Shown piece after piece: positions 3,093 through 62,610 of a stretch of DNA of 64,000 nt. Origin of the DNA: Beroe forskalii (taxonomy: Eukaryota; Ctenophora; Nuda; Beroida; Beroidae); the NCBI GenBank assembly GCA_011033025.1, contig WFMF01000013.1:930001-994000 (forward strand). The letters are read 5' to 3'. Position 1 is the stretch's first letter. Each line of letters begins with the position of its first letter. The notes beneath the pieces were generated by a model. It was not told the origin of the DNA. It saw only the letters and a program-made list of their open reading frames with translations, and did not search any database. The translations under genes were made by a program, and so were the position numbers.

Positions 3093-3480
3093 TTCCTCGT
3101 CTCTCCACTCTTCCCACTCTCTTCACTCTTCCTCCTCTCTTCACTCCTCCCACTTTCTTCACTCTTCCCACTCCCTCCACTCTTCCCACTTTCTTCACTC
3201 TTCAACCCTCTTCAATCTTCCACCTCTCGTCACTCTTTCTCCCCTCTCCACTCTTCCCACTCTCTTTACGTTTACTCCTCTCTCCACTCTTCCCACTTTC
3301 TTCACTCTTCAACCCTCTTCAATCTTCCCACTCTCTTCACTCTTCCTCCTCTCTTCACTCTTCCCACTTTCTTCACTCTTCAACCCTCTTCAATCTTCCC
3401 ACTTTCTTCACTCTTCCCACTTTCTTCAATCTTCTCTCTTCAACCCTCTTCAATCTTCCACCTCTCTTCACTCTTCCTCA
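3093..3480. repeat. Pyrimidine-rich minisatellite, copy A
   Basis: This is a run of CTTCACTCTTCCCACTTT-type units on the + strand, almost purely C and T. The same array is at 36372-36664 with a different unit number. It produces a long open frame rich in Leu, Ser, Pro and Phe, which is an artefact of the repeat. The CR1-like retrotransposon inserted at its right edge. Confidence 0.9.
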
Positions 3481-3595
3481 GTCGTCACCTAACAACTCTA
3501 CTAATTACTTAATTACAATCAAATTTGAGGACCCCAAACTGTTGTTTACCTTGCCACTAAATTCATGGGTGATTTTTGCCAACTAGCTCCAACTC

Positions 3596-5695
3596 ATGAA
3601 AGCTAGCTTGAGTAGTGATAAAATGTCAAAAACAGAAAGTGGCAAAAAACAAGCATCCGGGAGGGGGGCCTCAGATGTGTTTCAGTGTGATAACAAAGAC
3701 AAGACCAATGGCAATGTCAATGATACTGTTTTGAAAGACCCTCTTATCATAAATGGAAAATGTTGTAGATGCCCCTTCAATGGCAATATTGTTAATGAAG
3801 CTATCACTTGTTCCATATGCTGTAAGTTGTATCATGCCCTGTGCAGGGATAAGAAAGGTGGGTTTGCTGCTAATGCTATATGTTCAAAAACTTATTTTGA
3901 TATGTATGTACGCTTGACTACACACCATAAGCAGAACTCATCTAGGTGGGGGCAATTCTTGTTTACCTGTCAGAGTTGTCATTTGAATTACCCAGGTTTA
4001 TTCCCAAATTCAAATTCAGATTCAGAGGAAATTGATGTTGAATCCTTGAAATCTCCTGCTAAGTTTATACCTCTGAAAAAATATTCATGTGCTGAGGTAC
4101 AGACTGTCATATCAGGAACTATGGGAGGGTATAATTCTGATAGTGAAACCAACCAAGACAATAATTTTTCATCTCTCACCAAGCTCAATCAAGAAATCCT
4201 GGATAAGGTAAACATTCTTGAGAAGCTATCTAGAGATCAGGCAGATGTTTTCAAAACTGAAGTCAATAAAGTCATGACTGATCTTAAAGCTAAGTCTCAT
4301 ACAACTTGCTCTAATGTACCAATGCAGGCAACTGAGAATCTTACTGAAAGCCCACCTAGTTATACATTCAAATCAACATCTTGTAAACCAACAAAATCAT
4401 ATGAGGAAAGCTTTCTCAATGAAGAGCAATATGAACAAGTACTTGATTTTCTTCAGAACTGTCAGGATTTTCAAACCATAAAGTCAGGTAACAGCAGCAG
4501 AGATGTATCATATTATGGTGAGTTTAAGTATCGTTATGGTGCCATTCAGCATGATGCAAATCCCATACCAAAAGCTCTAGAGCCTATCATTGAACAGTTG
4601 TCAGCTAAGTTTCCAAACACCACAGTTAACTCTTGCCTCATTACCAAATACAGGAATGGTAATAACATTTGTCCTAAACATTCAGATGATGAGCTCTTCA
4701 TTGCACCCTGGAGTGACATCTTTACACTATCCATTGGCACTGAGAGAACCATGCAATTTGAGTCATCATCTAAAGATTTTCACTCCATGAAATTAGCAGA
4801 TAACAGTCTTTTGTCTTTTTCACGTTCCTCTCAACTATTTTGGAAACATGAAATTCCAAAAGATGACAGTTCCACTGTAAGATACAGCATTACTTTTAGG
4901 CAGCTTGCTCCCTACTACCTTAACTCAACCCTTATAGTAGGTGATTCCAACACACAGAATCTTAAATTTGGCTCTGGTCGAAACACATTTGGAGTTTGGA
5001 TGCCTGGCTGCAGAGTCAAGGCTGGTAAGATTGAGGACATCCCTGGACCTGATGAGCTGGAATTCCCATACCGTAACTTAGTTGTACACTGTGGGATAAA
5101 TGACATAAGGAATAAGAATCACCTGCCTATTCCAGTCCTCATCAAAAACCTGGGGCATAAATGCCAAGCTCTACAATCCAAATTCCCAAATATGAAAATA
5201 TTCATCAGCCTTATCCTCCCTACCAAAGACCCTGGACTCAACTCACTTGTACGTGAGTTTAATCAAAGAATCATGAATTTTGTGAACAAAAACACCAGAA
5301 TCTCAATAATTTCACATGAAAACCTTGGGAATCATTCAGGCTTACTGACCCATGATCTTGGACGTCATTACCAGGATGGATCAGCCATGGTCTCTGATAC
5401 CGTTCATCTAGGCTCAAAAGGTATTTCAATCTTTTGCTCAAACATAAAAAACAGTATTGTTAAGAGGAAAGATAGCAAGAAGTCAGAAAATGCTCATGTC
5501 AACAACAGCAACAGTAATATGGGCCATGATTCTCCATTTTGGAACCCCAATCCGAGATACAAACCCAGTAACAGACCTCTTCCTGTTCACCCCTACCCGT
5601 GGACGGGTAACCATCATGATAGCTTCCCAACTGGTGGCTCAATAAACTTAGACTTTAGTAATTTGAACAATGGCTTCCAATCATATGACTACTAA
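3596..5695 (+). CDS. Retrotransposon ORF1: PHD-like, AlkB and SGNH esterase domains
   Basis: The predicted product has 699 residues and three domains. (1) A Cys/His zinc domain at about residues 56-127, with CxxC-type pairs and a central YHALC, resembles a PHD or FYVE/PHD-like finger. (2) An AlkB-type Fe(II)/2-oxoglutarate dioxygenase spans about residues 275-440. It has the iron triad H362-x-D364 (KHSDDE) and H418 (WKHE), and the 2-oxoglutarate/substrate arginines in RYSITFR (R429, R435). (3) An SGNH hydrolase spans about 445-620, with GDS (S451), GIND (N502) and the DTVH block (D601, H604). Low-complexity acidic and Ser-rich linkers and a basic Asn/Pro-rich tail fill the rest. Esterase-type ORF1 proteins are known in CR1/L2 elements; the inserted AlkB domain is the unusual part. 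The start may instead be Met10. AlkB proteins demethylate alkylated nucleic acids, so a role in repairing or editing the element RNA or cDNA is my inference. Confidence 0.9.
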   Translation: MKASLSSDKMSKTESGKKQASGRGASDVFQCDNKDKTNGNVNDTVLKDPLIINGKCCRCPFNGNIVNEAITCSICCKLYHALCRDKKGGFAANAICSKTYFDMYVRLTTHHKQNSSRWGQFLFTCQSCHLNYPGLFPNSNSDSEEIDVESLKSPAKFIPLKKYSCAEVQTVISGTMGGYNSDSETNQDNNFSSLTKLNQEILDKVNILEKLSRDQADVFKTEVNKVMTDLKAKSHTTCSNVPMQATENLTESPPSYTFKSTSCKPTKSYEESFLNEEQYEQVLDFLQNCQDFQTIKSGNSSRDVSYYGEFKYRYGAIQHDANPIPKALEPIIEQLSAKFPNTTVNSCLITKYRNGNNICPKHSDDELFIAPWSDIFTLSIGTERTMQFESSSKDFHSMKLADNSLLSFSRSSQLFWKHEIPKDDSSTVRYSITFRQLAPYYLNSTLIVGDSNTQNLKFGSGRNTFGVWMPGCRVKAGKIEDIPGPDELEFPYRNLVVHCGINDIRNKNHLPIPVLIKNLGHKCQALQSKFPNMKIFISLILPTKDPGLNSLVREFNQRIMNFVNKNTRISIISHENLGNHSGLLTHDLGRHYQDGSAMVSDTVHLGSKGISIFCSNIKNSIVKRKDSKKSENAHVNNSNSNMGHDSPFWNPNPRYKPSNRPLPVHPYPWTGNHHDSFPTGGSINLDFSNLNNGFQSYDY

Positions 5696-7322
5696 ACGTG
5701 AAACTTGTGAGAACTGCTGTAAAGAAATTTACTCCCATCAAAAAATATTGATATGTTCATCATGTAACCTTATTTCTCATTACAAATGTGGTAAACAGGC
5801 TTATGAATATGATCAAACTGTTGATCAATGGCATTGCTATAACTGCCGAACAGAGAAACTAGTCAAGTATTCTCCTTTCAACTCTATAAGTTACTGCAAA
5901 TACAATCTTGATGATCCAGAGGCGTATGCTGAAATAGAGAAAATAAAAAACTGTTTGAGTAGCTGTAAAGTATTGTCTAACCAATTATTAAATGCCCAAA
6001 ACTTTGGTTTTGATAAAAAGCCTTTAGCTGTTTTTTCCAATAACATTGATGGCATGTCACAGAATTTTGACTCTTTACTGGCTAAATTATCAGTGCTTGA
6101 CAATAAATTTGATCTTCTGGCAATTACAGAAACAAATATCAATGAGACCCACAAAAATCTTTATAGTATCCCTGGATACACTTCCATTTTTAGCTCTAAA
6201 TATCCTAACAAACACAAAGGGAGTGGAATAGGCATTTACCTAAATGAACATTTCACTGGTTCTATAATCAATGAGCTTACAATGATATGTCCTGGCATTG
6301 AAACCCTATTTATTGATGTGTCTCACAAAGGCCAAAATTTTATCTATGGTGTAGTGTACAGGCCTCCAAGTGGCAAACTGAAAACTTTCTTCCAACAGCT
6401 TGAAAAAATATTTAGTATTTTAGCAAACAAAGAAACAGGTGTACAATCAATTATATGTGGAGATTTCAATGTTAACCTGCTAAAAAGTGACCCTAACAAA
6501 TCCAAATTTGAGAATATATTCTTTGGTAACTGTTTTGTGCCAACAATCTCACTTCCCACCCATGAAAAGCCTGGATGTGACCCATCATGTATTGATAATA
6601 TATTTGTTTCTGACGTAGATAACGTTGTTGGTTCTGGTTTATTATCTGATGTCAAAATATCTCACCACTATCCAACCATTTGTTTCTATGATATATTAGA
6701 CCCTGTGGCTCAAAATGATAGTGTTACCGAAGAATGTGTTCCACCCCGTTATGACTATTGTGAAACTCATATTATTGAATTCAACTCTCAATTAAGTCAT
6801 AAACTCTCTGCTGAGGAGTTTAGTGCTGATGAGTTAGGATTTGCAAAATTCATTGAATGCATAAATAGTACAATGGAGAACTGTTTCAGAGTGTGTCCAG
6901 AAACTCTCAAAAAGTCCAGACGTAATCGTATTGAAAATCCTTGGATCAGTAATGGTGTCATCAATTCAATAAACTATAAAAACTTTCTCTATGAAAAATG
7001 GAAGAAAAGTAAGAACAAGAAAAACAAAATGGGTAATTCTCAACTTTATGAAAAGTACAAAAACTATCGGAAAAAACTAAGAAACTTGATAAAATCAGCT
7101 AAAAACATGTTTTACTCAAAAAAGTTTGACAAATGCCAGGGAAATAACAAGAAAACATGGGCCCTGATCAATGAACTTAGAGGTAAAAGTTTATCTAAAT
7201 CTAAATGCAGCTTCCTGGTGAATGGGGACTTAGTGAAGGATAGAAGAATTATTGCTAATGAATTTAACAAATATTTTGCCTCAGTTGCTCAAGACCTATT
7301 ACTCCCATTCCAGACTTTGTAA
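5670..7322 (+). CDS. Retrotransposon ORF2, N-terminal part: PHD finger and AP endonuclease
   Basis: The ATG overlaps the end of ORF1 by 26 bases in another frame, a usual arrangement for two-ORF non-LTR elements. Residues about 9-56 form a C4HC3 PHD finger (CENCC, CSSC, HYKC, WHCYNC). Residues about 110-345 are an exonuclease-endonuclease-phosphatase fold, with SNNIDG, the catalytic ITETN, ICGDFNVN, CIDNIF and the terminal SHHYP motifs visible. A Lys-rich segment (about 430-500) leads towards the reverse transcriptase. The frame ends at 7322 because of a single-base-type shift near 7285-7298; the RT continues in another frame. In an intact element these would be one protein that nicks target DNA and primes reverse transcription. 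Confidence 0.9.
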   Translation: MASNHMTTKRETCENCCKEIYSHQKILICSSCNLISHYKCGKQAYEYDQTVDQWHCYNCRTEKLVKYSPFNSISYCKYNLDDPEAYAEIEKIKNCLSSCKVLSNQLLNAQNFGFDKKPLAVFSNNIDGMSQNFDSLLAKLSVLDNKFDLLAITETNINETHKNLYSIPGYTSIFSSKYPNKHKGSGIGIYLNEHFTGSIINELTMICPGIETLFIDVSHKGQNFIYGVVYRPPSGKLKTFFQQLEKIFSILANKETGVQSIICGDFNVNLLKSDPNKSKFENIFFGNCFVPTISLPTHEKPGCDPSCIDNIFVSDVDNVVGSGLLSDVKISHHYPTICFYDILDPVAQNDSVTEECVPPRYDYCETHIIEFNSQLSHKLSAEEFSADELGFAKFIECINSTMENCFRVCPETLKKSRRNRIENPWISNGVINSINYKNFLYEKWKKSKNKKNKMGNSQLYEKYKNYRKKLRNLIKSAKNMFYSKKFDKCQGNNKKTWALINELRGKSLSKSKCSFLVNGDLVKDRRIIANEFNKYFASVAQDLLLPFQTL

Positions 7323-8083
7323 GTTTCATTGGTAAAAGAGTCAATGATAGTTTATTTCTAGAACCATGTTCCATAACAGAATTAGAAAGAATAATTAATG
7401 GGTTAGAGAATGGTAAAGCTAGTGATATTCCAGTTAGAGTTCTTAAAAGTTGTATGCCAATAATAAATTCACATTTGAACACTTTTTACAACAAATTCAT
7501 TGAACTAGGCGTGTTTCCAAATGTACTCAAAATAGGCCAGATCACTCCAGTATTTAAAAAAGACAACAAACAACTATTCAAAAATTATAGACCTGTCTCA
7601 ATGCTCCCATGCTTTGGGAAAATCTTTGAAAAGCTTATATACTCCCGTCTATACAACTTTGTAATCTCAAAAAATATTCTTTATGAAAACCAATATGGTT
7701 TCCGTAGTCACCACTCTACATCTCATGCTGTGAATTATTCTATTGATAAAATAGCATGTAATATTGAAAATAAAAACCATGTTCTGGGCATCTTCATCGA
7801 CCTAAGTAAAGCTTTTGACACTATATGCCATGAAAAACTTCTTGTTAAATTGGAAAACTATGGTATACGAGGCACACCACTGAATCTTTTGAGAAGTTAT
7901 ATGACCAATAGACAACAACTTACTAACTTTGATTCTGTTAAATCTGATTTATTGCAGGTTAAGTTTGGTGTTCCTCAAGGATCTGTTCTAGGACCACTTC
8001 TTTTCATTCTGTATATAAATGATATAGTCAACTGTTCTAAGCTGGGACACTTTGTTTTATTTGCAGATGACACTAAGATATTA
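7298..8083 (+). pseudogene. Retrotransposon ORF2, reverse transcriptase part
   Basis: This is the frameshifted continuation of ORF2. It contains the classical non-LTR RT blocks in order: PVFKKDN and NYRPVSMLPCFGKIFEKL, then YGFRSHHST, FIDLSKAFDTICH (first catalytic Asp), VPQGSVLGPLLF, and FADDT (the catalytic Asp pair) at about 8061-8076. Coding is cut at 8083 by a TA-flanked DNA transposon. Reading across the insertion site with the transposon and one TA removed keeps the frame through residues KILVFVSGTSE. Frame disruption makes this copy inactive. Confidence 0.9.
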
Positions 8084-8995
8084 GTGCGTTCGGAAAAGAT
8101 TGTCACTTGCAATTTTCTGGAGAAACGGCTGCCGGGAGTGACTTTTTGATGTGATATTCCTTTTTTTCAGACATTTTTGGATTAAGATAATCGGGTTTTA
8201 CCGATAACTAAGTTTTCTTAGCCCATTCTACAGCAGATTCAAATTTCTAATTATTTGCTCCGCTGTACGAAACTGACCACGAATTTCATTGTCAAAGAAA
8301 ACGCGCTATCAACGGACCCAAGAAGTGTGAGATAATCAAAATGAGGCTGTCGCAGCACACGTGGATGCTAACCGGAACAAATAGACTGTTTTTCGTCGAC
8401 ATGAAATAATCCTAAGGGGTGCCTTGACCTCAAAAAGGATATGCTCCAGATAGGGCAGTTGCAACTTTTGCTCTGGCAATTGCTTAGAAAAACAACATTT
8501 AAATAACTTGAAACTTTCGGTTATCGTGTTAGGCTATAAGTTCAGACCCTTCCGTACACGAGACAACCATTTTTAAGATTTTGAGTTATTGTCTTAACTT
8601 CAGAAACGTTTTTGCAAGATGTGTACTGCATTATCGGTTAATGAACTGTCAAATTTGCCACTTTTTAGCTCTACTCATTATCAATAATGCAGGGTTAATC
8701 TTTGCGGATGTCAACCAATCATCCTATTCTTTAGTTTTGGACCTGAAGGCCCTGAATATGTCCTGAATAGTGAAATCGGACCATAAAAACATGGCCTAAA
8801 GAGATCTAGAATTCGCCATACAACCTGAAAACAATCAAAAAACAAGCTAGATGACCCACTCAAAAATCTTCGTTAACACTGAAAATTTGCAATTCAGTCT
8901 AGTAGAGACCCTTGTACTCGAATATGTCGAAATTTTGACATAATTGGTCATATTTGTCATTTTATGCCTGTAGTGACAATCATTACCGAACGCCC
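8084..8995. mobile_element. TA-flanked non-autonomous DNA transposon nested in the RT
   Basis: The 912-bp element has inverted ends: GTGCGTTCGGAAAAGATTGT on the left, and GGGCGTTCGGTAATGATTGT when the right end is reverse-complemented. It is flanked by TA at 8082-8083 and 8996-8997. Removing it with one TA restores the reverse transcriptase frame exactly, which fixes its borders. TA targets are typical of Tc1/mariner/pogo-type transposases. I see no transposase frame, so it was probably mobilised in trans. Confidence 0.85.
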
Positions 8996-9991
8996 TAGTA
9001 TTTGTAAGTGGAACATCAGAAAGAGAAGCTTACTTTAAGGCCAATGAGGTTCTTAGAGATGTCAACCTATATATGCTGAGCAATCAAGTTCATATCAATA
9101 TTGAAAAATGTGTATACATACATTTCAGACCTAAACTTAACCATAATGAGCAAAAAACTTATGCCAGAACAAAAATTATAGCTGATGAAACCATATCTTC
9201 TTGAATAATAAGCTTAAGAAAACAAATATGGCAAGGTACTTAGGAATTATCATTGATGAGAACTTAAACTGGGAAGGTCATCTTGAACATTTAGAACAAA
9301 AATTGAACAGTTCAATAATTACAATTAAAAGAATTAAAAAATTCATCCCACAAGAACACTTTAACAAACTTTACCATTCACTTTTTGCCTCACATTTAAC
9401 TTATGGGATATCAGCATGGGGTGCTGTATCTAATGACAAATTAAAAATATATTTCATATTCAAAAAGATGCATACGCTTACTATTTTTGGGAAAAACTGA
9501 ATTTCGATCATGCTGAATACTATAAAACTTGTGCCAGAACCAGATCAATTGATGAATATTTAGCTCCAAAGGAATATGTTTTAGAGCACACTAAACCTCT
9601 CTTCACAGAATTGAAATTATTAACCGTGCATAATCTCCACAACCTTTACTTGCTGAATGAAATTTTTAAAATCAAAAAATATAGATACCCAATCTCTCTA
9701 TATACGTTACTGAAAAACTCACCTGAGTCAACAAGATGTTGTCAAAAGAACAATATTGTTATACCTCATTACAAACTCAAAATGTCAAGGCAACAATTTT
9801 TGTACTGTGGCTCCTCAGTGTGGAACAAATTCAACAACAAAACTGCCTCTGCGGGCAGCAACTTTTTGTCAGACTTATCCATATCCTCTTGTATTGCAAA
9901 ACATAGATTTCAAAAATTTCTTCTTGGGCTTCAATCATCAGGGCATTCTGAGCTTTGGGAAGACAAAAACCTTAACTTTGAAATTCTATGA
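8996..9991 (+). pseudogene. Retrotransposon ORF2, C-terminal part
   Basis: The RT thumb and C-terminal region of ORF2 continue after the nested transposon in pieces of different frames. These are about 8998-9200 (SGTSEREAYFKANEVL), 9201-9480 (MARYLGIIIDENLNWEGHL, the conserved KYLG-type motif after the RT palm), and 9500-9991 (KPLFTELKLLTVHNLH to KFLLGLQ). Shifts fall near 9197 and 9460-9500. The segment 9611-9991 is open to a stop at 9989-9991, which is probably the original ORF2 terminus. Confidence 0.85.
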
Positions 9992-10837
9992 TTGGATAAC
10001 AAATTGCTATTTTTTTCTTCACCAACACTCAGCAGTTCTCACAAGTTAACTTCTGGTAATATTTCACCCTGTTGAATGAAAAGGATTCAATCTAAAAGCT
10101 GCTTATATTATCTAAATAGGTATTTCACCAAACATAAAATTCTTCCTATCGAGTACAAATCAAAGCTGTTCAATTTAATGTATTGGTTTGTCATTGATCT
10201 AACGGTAGATAACAGCTTATGGTAGATAACAGCCTACAGTAAACAAGTATAGAAAGGAGTAGTCTCCTGATGCAATAAGTTTCTTTTTATTACTTTATTA
10301 ACTACGTTATCAATATCAGTTATTAATAATGTTTCTGATTTGCAGCAATCTGTTATTAAACATTTCTAATAATCCATCAGAATTAACCTAATAAATTGTA
10401 TCCATAGCAGTTGTACCAAGGGTGGTGCCCAAGTTTCCACAGGCATTCCCTGTAGCCGCAATACAATCCAATTCTTATTGAATAATATCTAGTGCTGCCT
10501 GGTTTGTGTTTTATAAGTATATTAATTATAAAAAACTATATTATTGTTTTTAACCTAAGTATTTATCCTCTAGGCTCTAGGCTAGACTCAGAATATCCTC
10601 CTTTGTTTTTATTTACTGCAGAATATAAGGATATCCTATTTTTCTTTAAATTATTATCATTTAATCGAATATTGAATTCCTAATAAATATTTAAGTTGTT
10701 TTTGTTATTTGTATATATGTGCTATTGCATTTTATAACCTAATTTCAATCATGATTATCTTATAAGATCAAGAGAAATTGATATGATAAATCTTGGTGTA
10801 ATGTGCTACAAAATATAACCTTTTGTTTTATTAACCT
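9992..10837 (+). other. Retrotransposon 3' untranslated region
   Basis: This is AT-rich sequence after the ORF2 stop, running to the second copy of the target duplication. No coding frame is recognisable. The end reads TTTTGTTTTATTAA directly before the 18-base target repeat; there is no long poly(A). Confidence 0.75.
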
Positions 10838-10982
10838 CAGTCGTCACCTAACTCTTCCCAGTTCCTACTCTCTTCACTTGGATATTCCTGGATACCTACT
10901 TTAAAATATATTTCAATCAAATTAAGAAAAATTCAAATTGATCTGATAAATTGAGTCATGATGTCAAAAGTACGTCAATTTA

Positions 10983-11793
10983 GCTTCATCCCCCCCCCCC
11001 CTAAGAAAAGGGGGGATGAAGATTTTGGCCCAGATAAGGTAGATGGGGGGTTAGCCAAATTACAATGATTCTGGGGGGATTTGAACAGAAGGGGGGAGTG
11101 AAAAAATTAAGGGGGGATTGGGATCTGGCAGGAGAATTTCGAAATTTGAGATGAAAATCCTATGTCCGTGAGAAATGTTTTTTCTGAGACCCTCTGGCTT
11201 CTGGGGCTGCGCCGCCAGACCCCCGCTCTCCTTTGTAAGACTACAATATCACTGTGATGCTTCAATTGCTTGCCATTTTCAAGGCATATCAGCTTATCAA
11301 TTATGTATCTATGATTTTATATCGTGCTGACAATGTTCCTGAGGCTTGATTTCATGCCATGATTCCCTGACAAGTGTCACTTAAAAGTTTCACCTATTGA
11401 TTCAAGAATTAATAGACATAAAAAGTGAACACCAATACCATTTCAGGCATTAGAAATATCATGTTATTATCTTATTATGACGTGTTAAAGCTCAAAATTA
11501 ACTAAATTTTCTGTCTGACTTGTTCTTTACTTCTGTCAGTCACATAAAATAGTTCACACACTTTAATCTTATCATTAATAAAGGTCATAATTTTGGTTGA
11601 TACTTGTGTAAACAATTCAATGGACATATCTTAGAAAAATTTTCGAAGATATTGGTGGGGGGTTGGTCGACTTTTTGAAATTCAGGGGTGGGGTGCCCAA
11701 AAGGGGGGATGGCGGATTTTAAGAATTCAGGGGGGAGGCTTTGGCAAGGGGGGAGTTTAAAAATTCAGGGGGGATTGGACCCAGGATGAAGCT
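10983..11793. mobile_element. C/G-rich inverted-repeat insertion, unclassified
   Basis: The element is absent from copy B (compare about 36780-36815). It begins GCTTCATCC followed by a C run and ends with a G-rich stretch followed by GGATGAAGC, so the ends are inverted repeats. The flanks share TAYGTCAATTTA (10971-10982 and about 11798-11808), giving a target duplication of about 9-12 bases. The interior holds several runs of GGGGGG and no gene. The class is uncertain. Confidence 0.6.
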
Positions 11794-11849: not shown

Positions 11850-12638
11850 TCACATGATACTACAAAAGTGCATACCCCCAAAGGGCGTGTTAATTTCAAT
11901 TCCATCAGCTCCGACCTTTCCTCCATACCCAAGAGCGTGGCATTCTGCGTTACCATTTCGGATTCCAATACCTGTGTTATAATTGAGTCCAACGTGACCA
12001 CCAATTAAATTTCCAACGTTAAACGCAGCTTCACAGACTTTGACATCCAGAAAGAGGCCTGCTCCTGGGCCTGCAACTGCCTGTGCTGTTGCCTGTCCGA
12101 CCTCAGCTGTTACTTCGAGAAGTGGTGTTGATATCCGACCTTTTCCTAGACTGTAGAAGGCTATTGCATTACCTTCGTCAGCTACTTTAAAGCCATCATT
12201 GTCGAAGAAGTTCCTACTCAACTGCTGTTCTGCAGAGGAGGCGGAATGAGTGGTGTGCTCACACTTGAAGACCCCGTCTGTCAGCCAATGAATCATGTCG
12301 TAGGCAAACTTCTGACAGTTCTCAGCGAAGATGTTATATTGTGGGGTTTTACGTAACCATTCCTCAATCCACGAGTTGATTTCCCAGTCTAATTTGGTAG
12401 TTACCCCAACTATCTCACCGCCATAGGAGCCTGCACCACTCTTTGCTGCATAACCATCGCTCTTACTGATCCTGTTTACTTTCATCGATGGAGAGCTACT
12501 TAGGAAATCGCTGGAATCCCCCTCAAGACCTGCAATCTCGTACCAAATTCCCCCCACATTGACAGCCCAATGGTGAGCTATTATGATGCCTGGGGGTATC
12601 ATCTTCCGTCCCAACTTTACTCGCCTTTCCCTTGCCAT
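11850..12638 (-). CDS. LRAT/NlpC-P60-like cysteine-hydrolase protein with CaaX end, copy A
   Basis: This is an intronless 262-residue protein. The N-terminal half has the arrangement of circularly permuted papain-like folds (LRAT, PPPDE, NlpC/P60 relatives): AHHWAVNVGGIWYEI supplies the catalytic-type His, and about 85 residues later NCQKFAYDMI supplies the Cys (compare the NCEHF motif of LRAT-like proteins). The C-terminal third is Gly-rich (GGHVGLNYNTGIGIRNG and on to INTPFGGM), a small domain seen fused to varied hydrolase and effector modules. The protein ends in CSIM, which fits a CaaX prenylation box. There is no signal peptide or membrane span. Its near-identical duplicate at 36843-37634 is also intact, unlike the cyclin-Y exons around it, which suggests the frame is under selection. 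Substrate unknown; possible roles are deubiquitination-like, acyl transfer or peptide hydrolysis. Confidence 0.8.
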   Translation of the reverse strand: MARERRVKLGRKMIPPGIIIAHHWAVNVGGIWYEIAGLEGDSSDFLSSSPSMKVNRISKSDGYAAKSGAGSYGGEIVGVTTKLDWEINSWIEEWLRKTPQYNIFAENCQKFAYDMIHWLTDGVFKCEHTTHSASSAEQQLSRNFFDNDGFKVADEGNAIAFYSLGKGRISTPLLEVTAEVGQATAQAVAGPGAGLFLDVKVCEAAFNVGNLIGGHVGLNYNTGIGIRNGNAECHALGYGGKVGADGIEINTPFGGMHFCSIM

Positions 12639-31052: not shown

Positions 31053-50004
<18,952 letters not shown>

Positions 50005-60142: not shown

Positions 60143-62610
60143 ATGTCAAAAACAGATTTAAAAAGAGATAGACCAGCTGTAAAAGTTGAAGGTGATTCTG
60201 CTGCTCTTAAGCTTCAAGATGATATCACTTGCAAGGGCTGTTTCAAAGAATTCAATTCCAACAGAGTGCCAAAAGTTTTACATTGTCTTCATAACCTTTG
60301 TACAGAATGCATAAGCATGTCATTTGGTTTAAATCCTGGTACAAACACTGTAACCTGTCCAACTTGCCAAATAAAATGTGTTGGGAAGAGTGCTGAATCT
60401 TTTCGTACTCATTCTTATGTCCAAATTATTTCTGATATTTCTGCCTGCTTTAAAGATCAAATGAATGGGACTCTAAAATGTATTGGATGTAAAAATGTTG
60501 CTGGACTTCGATGCTTGACATGCAATGAAAATTACTGTCAGGAACATACGGGTAATTTTGGGTCCTTTTATTTCAGACTAAAAATTTCATTCTTATAATT
60601 CATGATTTTTGCTACACATTAGCCATCAGTACTCACACTGCCACCCCTGCACTCCTTCATTATAGCCACTTCACTCGTAAGTAGGTACTCTCTCATCCTC
60701 AACTACTGTAAAATGAGACCTGACAGATGGTACACCATCAAATCTGTCTAAAAGCATAAAATTTGTGTAAAACCTGTCACTAACCTGTCCAAAACCTGTC
60801 CCAAAGTTAGTTTTGAAACGTGTCAAACTCATCCAAAACCGGTCACAGTGTTGGTAAAAAAGATGCAAATCCTGTTCAAAATCTTTTTTAAACCTGTCCA
60901 AAATCTGTCTTTGAATTAAAAAAAAACCCTGTTTTAACCTGTTCAGAGCCTGTCAACAAAAAGTGGATGGGTTACCACCTGCCAGAAAGCCTAAAATGTG
61001 ATATCCAAAAGCTCTCTGAAATGGAACTCTTTTAATCATTTAAAGTTTACACCTAATTTACACTCCTTATCACTGTAGCTTTCAATTCATAGTATGTATT
61101 ATTCTATAAGGTCTTAGGTCATAGATTCTGTCAAAAAATAATTTCCATATTTCAGATTTCCATGTGAGAAGTAGAGCTACATCACATCATAAAGTACTTT
61201 CGTTCAAACAAATCCTCAGTGCCCCTTTGATTGTCAGTACTATTAAAAAGGATGAAAACTGTCCCTCACATACCACCAAGCTTGTTGAATTCTTCTGCTT
61301 CACTTGTAAGCTCCCAATCTGTACAGCATGTGCATTATCTTCTCATGAGAGTTGTATTTATGAGGAACTTTCTATTGCTGTTTCTTCCCTCAAGGAAAAG
61401 TTTGACAAGATCAAGCCTGCTTTCAACCGAAAAGCATACAACCTTAAAAAGAAAGGTACAATCCTAGAAACAGGCATCAAGCAAATTGAGGGCGATTTTT
61501 CAAATAGTACAGCAACAGTTGCTGATATGAGTGACTCAATTCTAAGGCAGTTACGACAAAAAGAAGCTACCATGAACCTCCATATTGAAGAACATGTAGG
61601 TATTTTATTGGAACCATTTGACTTGAACCTTTTATTTTGTTCATTTACTTGTATAGTTGTATATAAACGAATTCCTGTGTGTACCTACAGCATTAATTTA
61701 TAATTTATGTTCCCTTTTAAACATGTAAACATTGTGACATTTGTTGTAGGTATCATTGAACATTATGGTATAACTAATGTTATAAAGGATATAATGTATC
61801 TTTGAATAAAAGCTAATGATTATGACACCTTAATTATTTGCAGAGCAACACACTGTAAGATAACAACTTCAATAACTGAGTTCTACATGTAATGCTAACA
61901 TTTCTGAATCTGTTGATGGGAGCACTTTGAATCCTGGATGACTTTTTCATGTGGCAAAGCAATTTCTCTTTGTAAGTGTCAGTGCCTGTGAATTGTGATA
62001 TGACTGAAGTTTAGTGTGCTTATCTAAGCTTTTAATAACTCCTGATATTGATAGAATAATATCATTTTCATATCATGATGTTTTCTGTTTTGAAGTAAGC
62101 CAAAAATAATTCATTTTTGTCCTTTTAAGATCCCTACGTATTCAATGAACAAAATGATCTGATCTTATTGAAAAATTCAGAGAAAAGAAAGTCAGGGGGA
62201 GTTAAGGATTCATCAATCCTTAGTGGAAGACAAAATTGCAAACATTGAATCAGGAACAGATTTTGTGGACACTGTATTTGATTACTGGAACCCTGTAGAA
62301 GTTCTCACTGTGGAAAATGAGATAAGTATGTCATGCTTTTATTGTAGCATGTGGTGAATCCTAAAATCAATGTCTAAGAATGTTTATGCTTTATAGCTGA
62401 TAATATGTTGTGGATAGTGAATCAACTACAAATTTACCTTTGCCTTTTTCAGTAAAACGGTTGACAGAGTTGACTGCAGAGCCAGAAGAGTTCAATGCAG
62501 AAAATGCCAAACCAAAAGCATACGACATGCCTCCCCTCTTGGGCGATTCTGTTGTTGATGCTATTAACTTGCTGGAAAACAGTTCATTCAGTAACAAGGA
62601 GTCTAGTTAA
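60143..62610 (+). CDS. TRIM-like RING/B-box/coiled-coil protein
   Basis: Exons: 60143-60551, 61156-61595, 62181 (or 62196)-62325 and 62453-62610; junction phases all agree, giving about 380 residues. The RING finger (CKGCFKEFNS, CLHNLCTECI, CPTC) spans residues about 33-75. A B-box 1-like Cys/His segment follows (CIGCKNVAGLRCLTCNENYCQEH), then B-box 2 (CPSHTTKLVEFFCFTCKLPICTACALSSHESC). A long helical region (KEKFDKIKPAFNRKAYNLKK to VEDKIANIESGTDFVDTVFD) fits the TRIM coiled coil. It ends in a short acidic tail at the TAA, with no NHL, filamin or B30.2 domain seen. The family are E3 ubiquitin ligases; substrate unknown. The ATG at 60143 lies just after an acceptor, so an upstream exon may exist. 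Confidence 0.85.

Follow-up and report, generated by a model that had tools for sequence, protein, structure and literature searches.

An AlkB dioxygenase fused to an SGNH esterase in the ORF1 protein of a LINE from Beroe forskalii

A 64-kb stretch of the Beroe forskalii genome, in the following called the window, contains a long interspersed nuclear element (LINE) whose intact first open reading frame (ORF1) combines a zinc finger, an AlkB dioxygenase and an SGNH esterase. This locus raises the question whether an enzyme acting on alkylated nucleic acids is a regular part of a LINE and, if so, where it came from and what it might do there. The original prediction, made from the sequence of the window, considered an AlkB domain between zinc domain and esterase to be non-standard, and this arrangement is indeed missing from the ORF1 architectures given in the accessible portions of two publications (PMC4120745, PMC3905857). 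Metcalfe and Casane list RRM, CCHC, PHD and esterase as ORF1 parts, and the words AlkB and dioxygenase are absent from the main text of their ORF1 survey (PMC4120745). Text searches of the titles and abstract openings of open-licence papers found no LINE-encoded AlkB, and an earlier mention elsewhere is possible.

The sole retrotransposon-encoded AlkB found in open-licence literature searches is that of Phalaenopsis Gypsy elements, an ALKBH5-like protein with N6-methyladenosine (m6A) demethylase activity in vitro (PMC9289625, accessible text). Like the Beroe element, these orchid Ty3/Gypsy elements are retrotransposons with an AlkB enzyme of their own; they are, however, long terminal repeat (LTR) elements which carry it in a separate ORF and are described there as having acquired it recently. 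The Beroe AlkB, in contrast, is part of a LINE ORF1 fusion, is ALKBH2/3-like and has homologues down to about 33% identity. According to the same paper (PMC9289625), AlkB is also found in the plant RNA virus families Alphaflexiviridae, Betaflexiviridae and Closteroviridae. By description, these are likewise RNA-based mobile elements equipped with AlkB. In plant RNA viruses the domain sits in the viral replication protein.

The AlkB-SGNH fusion is recurrent in LINE ORF1s

The original prediction had recognized complete motif sets of both enzymes within one frame of 699 codons, and this is confirmed by profile searches, fold and conservation (Table 1). ORF1 residues 310-435 match the Pfam model 2OG-FeII_Oxy_2 above cut-off (E 9e-17). 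The closest solved proteins are human ALKBH3 (1e-8) and ALKBH2 (2e-7) in a single-sequence search, and ALKBH2 (3e-22) and ALKBH3 (1.5e-21) when a profile is compared with the PDB. In the latter comparison ALKBH8, E. coli AlkB and ALKBH6 were weaker, an N6-methyladenine (6mA) demethylase was matched at 3e-8, and ALKBH5 and FTO gave no match at E up to 0.1 (the trees discussed below are without ALKBH5). The double-stranded beta-helix, the HxD...H iron site and the RxxxxxR motif for 2-oxoglutarate (2OG) are all present, and by profile and fold the domain is ALKBH2/3-like.

For the other domains, the window ORF1 was considered together with 36 homologues from a protein search, giving 37 aligned rows. 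Whereas the dioxygenase expected by the original prediction was recovered by Pfam, the GDSL model remained sub-threshold in the window ORF1 (0.024; GDSL_2 in 10 of 37 rows at E up to 0.01) and no PHD model was found there at E up to 1. The SGNH fold and the catalytic Ser, Asn, Asp and His are present, and the equivalents of the transposon-only His191 and Ser228, identified by alignment and hand count as H498 and S538, occur in 30 and 31 of the 37 rows, respectively. The proposed PHD-like finger stands as far as its eight C4HC3 ligands are concerned, with a long loop preceding the last ligand pair, but not in terms of a significant PHD profile match for the window ORF1: RING and PHD profiles gave weak matches (best 0.011), and 4 of 37 rows matched the PHD profile at E up to 0.01.

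In general layout this ORF1 resembles the esterase ORF1s of the ZfL2-1 type (Type IV) of CR1/L2 elements, in which SGNH also follows a coiled coil, and it keeps the GDS, GxND and DxxH blocks as well as the transposon-specific His and Ser positions. It differs in the AlkB domain fused directly before the esterase and in the zinc finger, complete with all eight ligands in 23 of 37 rows. Type IV ORF1s have been published without a structural nucleic-acid-binding domain, whereas here AlkB and a zinc finger share the frame; the esterase-type ORF1 proteins (ORF1ps) in Repbase are reported to be devoid of any structural RNA-binding domain (PMC3905857).

The family is diversified, and its junction is constant. 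PF13532 is found in 36 of 37 rows, and H362, D364, H418, R429 and R435 are present in all 36 rows which contain the region (P0031 is without most of it). The second AlkB Arg and the SGNH Ser delimit a stretch of 17 residues, both ends included, in 35 of 37 rows, the exceptions being P0037 with a longer spacer and P0031 with the region missing. Mean identity to the window is 54% for AlkB, 53% for SGNH and 19% for the coiled-coil stretch. ORF2 homologues were searched for separately, with 120 of 218 listed; for 9 of the 36 ORF1 homologues, the longest contig has exactly the length of that of a listed ORF2 homologue. When the lengths were shifted by 1-60 bp either way as a control, the mean was 0.65 and the maximum 3.

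With 64 of 435 candidates scored, ORF1 has at least 74 matches in the Beroe forskalii genome itself (own genome; 216 Mb in 1134 contigs), partly as fragments belonging to one and the same copy; among the matches listed, the closest ORF1 that is nearly complete is 72% identical. PF13532 has at least 150 matches (150 of 189 candidates scored), all above cut-off and including host genes, and 88 of the 150 listed lie in open frames of at least 450 aa. At 20 of 20 loci picked from the 74 ORF1 matches for an open ORF1, AlkB and SGNH share one frame, and 19 of these loci show ORF2 homology downstream on the same strand. Both frames are open from stop to stop at L009 (698 and 1149 aa), L011 (738 and 1147 aa) and L013 (714 and 1200 aa). 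Among the listed SGNH matches of the own genome with an aligned start, 83 of 116 have an AlkB match ending at most 150 bp upstream, 77 of them at most 26 bp. The order AlkB-SGNH thus recurs in other copies, and an accidental insertion in a single copy is ruled out by the homologues, the own-genome matches and the loci. Two further frames were seen in passing: a continuous 858-aa frame at L018:322-2895 spans ORF1 and the start of ORF2, and an AlkB match at G000:C225:193031-193483 lies within an open frame of 1169 aa.

All 24 open ORF1s of the own genome, among them that of the window and those of the loci chosen for an open ORF1, have the nine tested catalytic residues of AlkB and SGNH intact. 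The retention of all catalytic residues, stressed in the original prediction, is thereby confirmed, and it is strengthened by ratios of nonsynonymous to synonymous substitution (dN/dS). The AlkB domain is under purifying selection, with Nei-Gojobori dN/dS values of 0.06-0.11 in seven of eight pairs with dS 0.05-1.5, some pairs having members in common. For SGNH the median is 0.13 (4 pairs in the same dS range). Close pairs give 0.20 (L002-L003) and 0.36 (L012-L014) for the coiled coil, whose median of 0.90 from 33 mostly distant, poorly alignable pairs is no fair control.

Table 1. Features of the LINE and its insertion site in the window
Feature	Position	Strand	Basis
Target-site duplication, left copy, 18 bp, CCTCAGTCGTCACCTAAC	3476..3493	.	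exact match to 10835..10852
LINE, full-length, two ORFs, 7341 bp with the 909-bp insert counted	3494..10834	+	bounded by target-site duplication
ORF1, intact, 699 aa	3596..5695	+	open frame, homologues
C4HC3 PHD-like zinc finger (C56 C59 C72 C75 H80 C83 C125 C128)	3761..3979	+	ligand pattern
Predicted long helix/coiled coil, residues 190-236	4163..4303	+	AlphaFold2 (AF2) model
AlkB 2OG-Fe(II) dioxygenase, residues 268-437 (H362 D364 H418 R429 R435)	4397..4906	+	Pfam, profile against PDB, fold, conservation
SGNH esterase, residues 441-622 (S451 N502 D601 H604; H498, S538)	4916..5461	+	SGNH fold, conserved residues
C-terminal tail, disordered, residues 629-699	5480..5692	+	predicted local distance difference test (pLDDT) under 50
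ORF2, first open stretch, 550 aa: PHD-like finger (residues 16-59) and AP-type endonuclease	5670..7322	+	endonuclease E 3.6e-5
ORF2, second open stretch: reverse transcriptase as far as the insert	7310..8083	+	RVT_1 8e-31; 78% to P0135
Non-autonomous repeat, 909 bp, terminal inverted repeats, splits reverse transcriptase	8084..8992	+	copies elsewhere in genome
ORF2 remainder, shifted frames	8998..9991	+	tblastn of P0135, 61-75%
3' untranslated region (UTR), ends at common 3' terminus	9992..10834	+	3' UTR matches across own genome
Target-site duplication, right copy	10835..10852	.	exact match to 3476..3493
Empty site, paralogous, in duplicated flank	36660..36677	.	single target, one mismatch, element absent

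Origin and relatives of the AlkB domain

The transposon AlkB falls outside the clades of host ALKBH2 and ALKBH3. In a tree including own-genome rows, L029-L031 group with echidna (Tachyglossus) ALKBH3 (support 92/97) and L032 with human ALKBH2 (100/99), while the cellular side including ALKBH2, ALKBH3 and bacterial relatives is supported by 81/93. The host thus keeps an ALKBH2 and an ALKBH3 of its own, separate in the trees from the esterase-fused AlkBs. As the host genes group apart from the transposon rows, the transposon AlkBs are not recent copies of host genes. A recent capture of host ALKBH2 or ALKBH3 is accordingly not supported, the host genes standing with those of vertebrates.

A second tree, without own-genome rows, contains 42 transposon rows, i.e. 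38 with the fusion region and four truncated relatives, which are separated from 36 others by a branch with a support just below the usual thresholds (93/76). For this tree P0039, P0042, P0046 and P0048 were placed on the transposon side following a first tree; left out were P0050, P0052, P0097, P0037 and seven other long-branched rows as well as the cellular rows from P0098 on, P0126 and P0130 excepted. In the first tree P0097, a protein of 156 aa from Mnemiopsis leidyi, was placed on a long branch among AlkBs of transposons. A pattern search of viral contigs gave 27 matches, none of which is a relative.

The own genome also harbors a second AlkB lineage (L034 and L036-L043, with L041, L042 and L043 representing the same places as L034, L039 and L040) with open frames of 457-584 aa. 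In some of its members SGNH is weakly matched behind a longer spacer; for L037 and L038 no SGNH match reached the threshold. ORF2 remnants were found at L041. L033 is a further transposon row of this lineage, and P0037 groups with its rows.

At L044:3177-7499 and at L045 (C847), an open frame of 2026 aa contains SGNH followed by AlkB, together with proline-rich repeats; a Helitron_like_N domain (5e-25) lies directly downstream. Judged from these frames, both loci appear to be a Helitron with the same enzyme pair in reverse order. Because of the reverse order the pair was apparently assembled separately there, and its presence in a Helitron suggests that AlkB and esterase activities work together.

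Possible roles of the two-enzyme ORF1p

We favour, with moderate confidence, a two-enzyme ORF1 of an autonomous-type LINE in which AlkB strips N-alkyl groups from the RNA or cDNA of the element. The most likely activity of ORF1p is the removal of base methyl groups from these molecules, probably of the 1-methyladenine/3-methylcytosine (1-meA/3-meC) type that blocks reverse transcriptase, a substrate which we infer from the relatives of the domain. The role proposed in the original prediction, protection or demethylation of the element's own RNA or cDNA, is plausible.

Methyl groups on the base-pairing face block reverse transcription. In the favoured reading, ORF1p would multimerise via its coiled coil and coat the element RNA, the esterase would, as has been proposed for ZfL2-1, mediate contact with lipids or membranes, and within the particle AlkB would clear the base-pairing face of element RNA or single-stranded cDNA of N-alkyl groups. 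As such groups would stall the reverse transcriptase, which must copy about 6.4 kb, AlkB would favour full-length insertion. AlkB may also provide the nucleic-acid-binding surface missing from other esterase-type ORF1ps and anchor nucleic acid, because these proteins are reported to be without known RNA-binding domains (PMC3905857). More tentatively, the ORF1p of an old, recently active LINE lineage may constitute a self-maintaining particle, in which AlkB would rid element RNA or cDNA of base methylation that blocks reverse transcriptase or was deposited by the host, and the esterase would dock the particle on membranes, with the pair recurring in the Helitron.

Other roles have to be weighed against demethylation of element RNA or cDNA. 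In an epitranscriptomic counter-defence, AlkB would erase host m6A or 1-methyladenosine (m1A) marks which send element transcripts to granules or to decay; this has been suggested for the orchid Gypsy elements, whose ALKBH5-like protein is a precedent as m6A demethylase in vitro (PMC9289625). Since ALKBH2 and ALKBH3, rather than the m6A erasers, are closest, the evidence leans to 1-meA/3-meC marks over an m6A counter-signal, and we consider such a defence unlikely. A role at the DNA level, in which the enzyme would repair or demethylate (alkylated bases, 6mA) the target site or cDNA while target-primed reverse transcription proceeds and the PHD-like finger would read chromatin, seems still less likely to us: the top match ALKBH2 is a duplex DNA repair enzyme, a 6mA demethylase is among the matches and the finger has PHD-type ligands, but the PHD assignment is sub-threshold. 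It is doubtful that the AlkB fold is a mere nucleic-acid-binding module with its catalysis unused. Any such fold could be useful to an esterase-type ORF1p devoid of a structural RNA-binding domain (PMC3905857), but some iron/2OG residues would then be expected to be lost, and all five are kept in every row with the region and in every open own-genome ORF1. Nothing was found in favour of the frame being a host gene or an assembly artefact beside a LINE, and this is hardly credible in view of the target-site duplication and the empty site, the ORF2 homology downstream of ORF1 and the separate host ALKBH2 and ALKBH3 genes, and the host gene was rejected on these grounds.

Several observations weigh against the favoured reading. 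Selecting loci for an open ORF1 favours intact motifs, the dN/dS pairs share members, and the eighth AlkB pair (L024-L027) has a dN/dS of 0.66 with a dN of 0.86. Residue 365, which adjoins the iron ligands within the 'HxDDE' block common to ALKBH2/3, varies across the 37 rows, with D in 19, N in 14 and either Q or H in 3, and substrate choice may therefore differ from ALKBH2/3. In the first tree, seven rows labelled cellular fell among the transposon rows (joining branch SH-aLRT 83). In the tree with own-genome rows, the transposon rows form several supported groups with weak joins and unsettled bootstrap, so that this tree gives no single origin. L023 is the one of the 20 loci without an ORF2 match, and L042 and L043 of the second lineage have none in the stretch examined. 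For 33 of the 116 SGNH matches there is no AlkB match at most 150 bp upstream among the matches listed, and L046:2322-3512, one of several frames of about 400 aa among these 33, is an AlkB-less esterase ORF1 of 397 aa in the own genome (SGNH 6e-24). Esterase-only and AlkB forms therefore coexist, and esterase ORF1s do not generally need AlkB; the other AlkB-less SGNH matches may be truncated copies, AlkB-less lineages or cases with AlkB beyond the matches listed. Finally, for human L1 the m6A writer is reported to promote retrotransposition and ALKBH5 to suppress it (PMC7873242), and demethylation is thus not always good for a LINE. Downstream of the L046 frame, endonuclease- and reverse transcriptase-like frames were seen by eye, without a match to the ORF2 profile.

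If AlkB acts on element RNA or cDNA, nucleic-acid demethylation or repair would be part of a LINE's own machinery, and one could test directly whether retrotransposition is limited by methylation of bases or by damage from alkylation. The family further represents a large natural set of AlkB enzymes, and the domain is a candidate for the part with which esterase-type ORF1 proteins may bind nucleic acid.

The LINE copy in the window and its surroundings

The element is an APE-type non-LTR LINE, with apurinic/apyrimidinic (AP) endonuclease and reverse transcriptase, a target-site duplication and 5'-truncated relatives sharing its 3' end. The 3' UTR has at least 58 matches in the own genome (40 of 192 candidates scored). 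Among the 14 best other matches (87-100% identity), two of which are neighbours on a single contig and perhaps represent one copy, 13 share the same 3' end within 4 bp, and 11 start inside the query, the usual pattern of LINE 5' truncation. Five of the 14 show 99-100% identity over 96-581 bp, which suggests that the subfamily was recently active.

The target-site duplication is the longest exact repeat between positions 3300-3600 and 9991-11200. The duplicated flank lies in the window at 36-38 kb. Aligned with it, the left flank is 94.7% identical over 622 aligned bases, and the right flank 96.2% over 132, followed by about 840 unmatched bases and again 96.2% over 1460. This segmental duplication, which supplies the empty site, also carries two near-identical frames on the minus strand (262 aa at 11850-12638 and 263 aa at 36843-37634).

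ORF2 overlaps ORF1 by 26 nt in a different frame. At its N-terminus (5715-5846) it has a second PHD-like cysteine pattern, for which the Pfam PHD match is not significant (E 0.33). As stated in the original prediction, ORF2 of this copy is decayed, namely disrupted by frame shifts and the 909-bp repeat. With 40 of 246 candidates scored, the repeat has at least 41 own-genome matches, almost all of which are 88-93% identical and share the same ends; its terminal inverted repeats were read by eye, and by eye it resembles a DNA transposon of the non-autonomous kind with TA as target. Farther downstream, at 60143-61703 of the window, RING/B-box-like cysteine patterns occur in two frames that are TRIM-like by eye.
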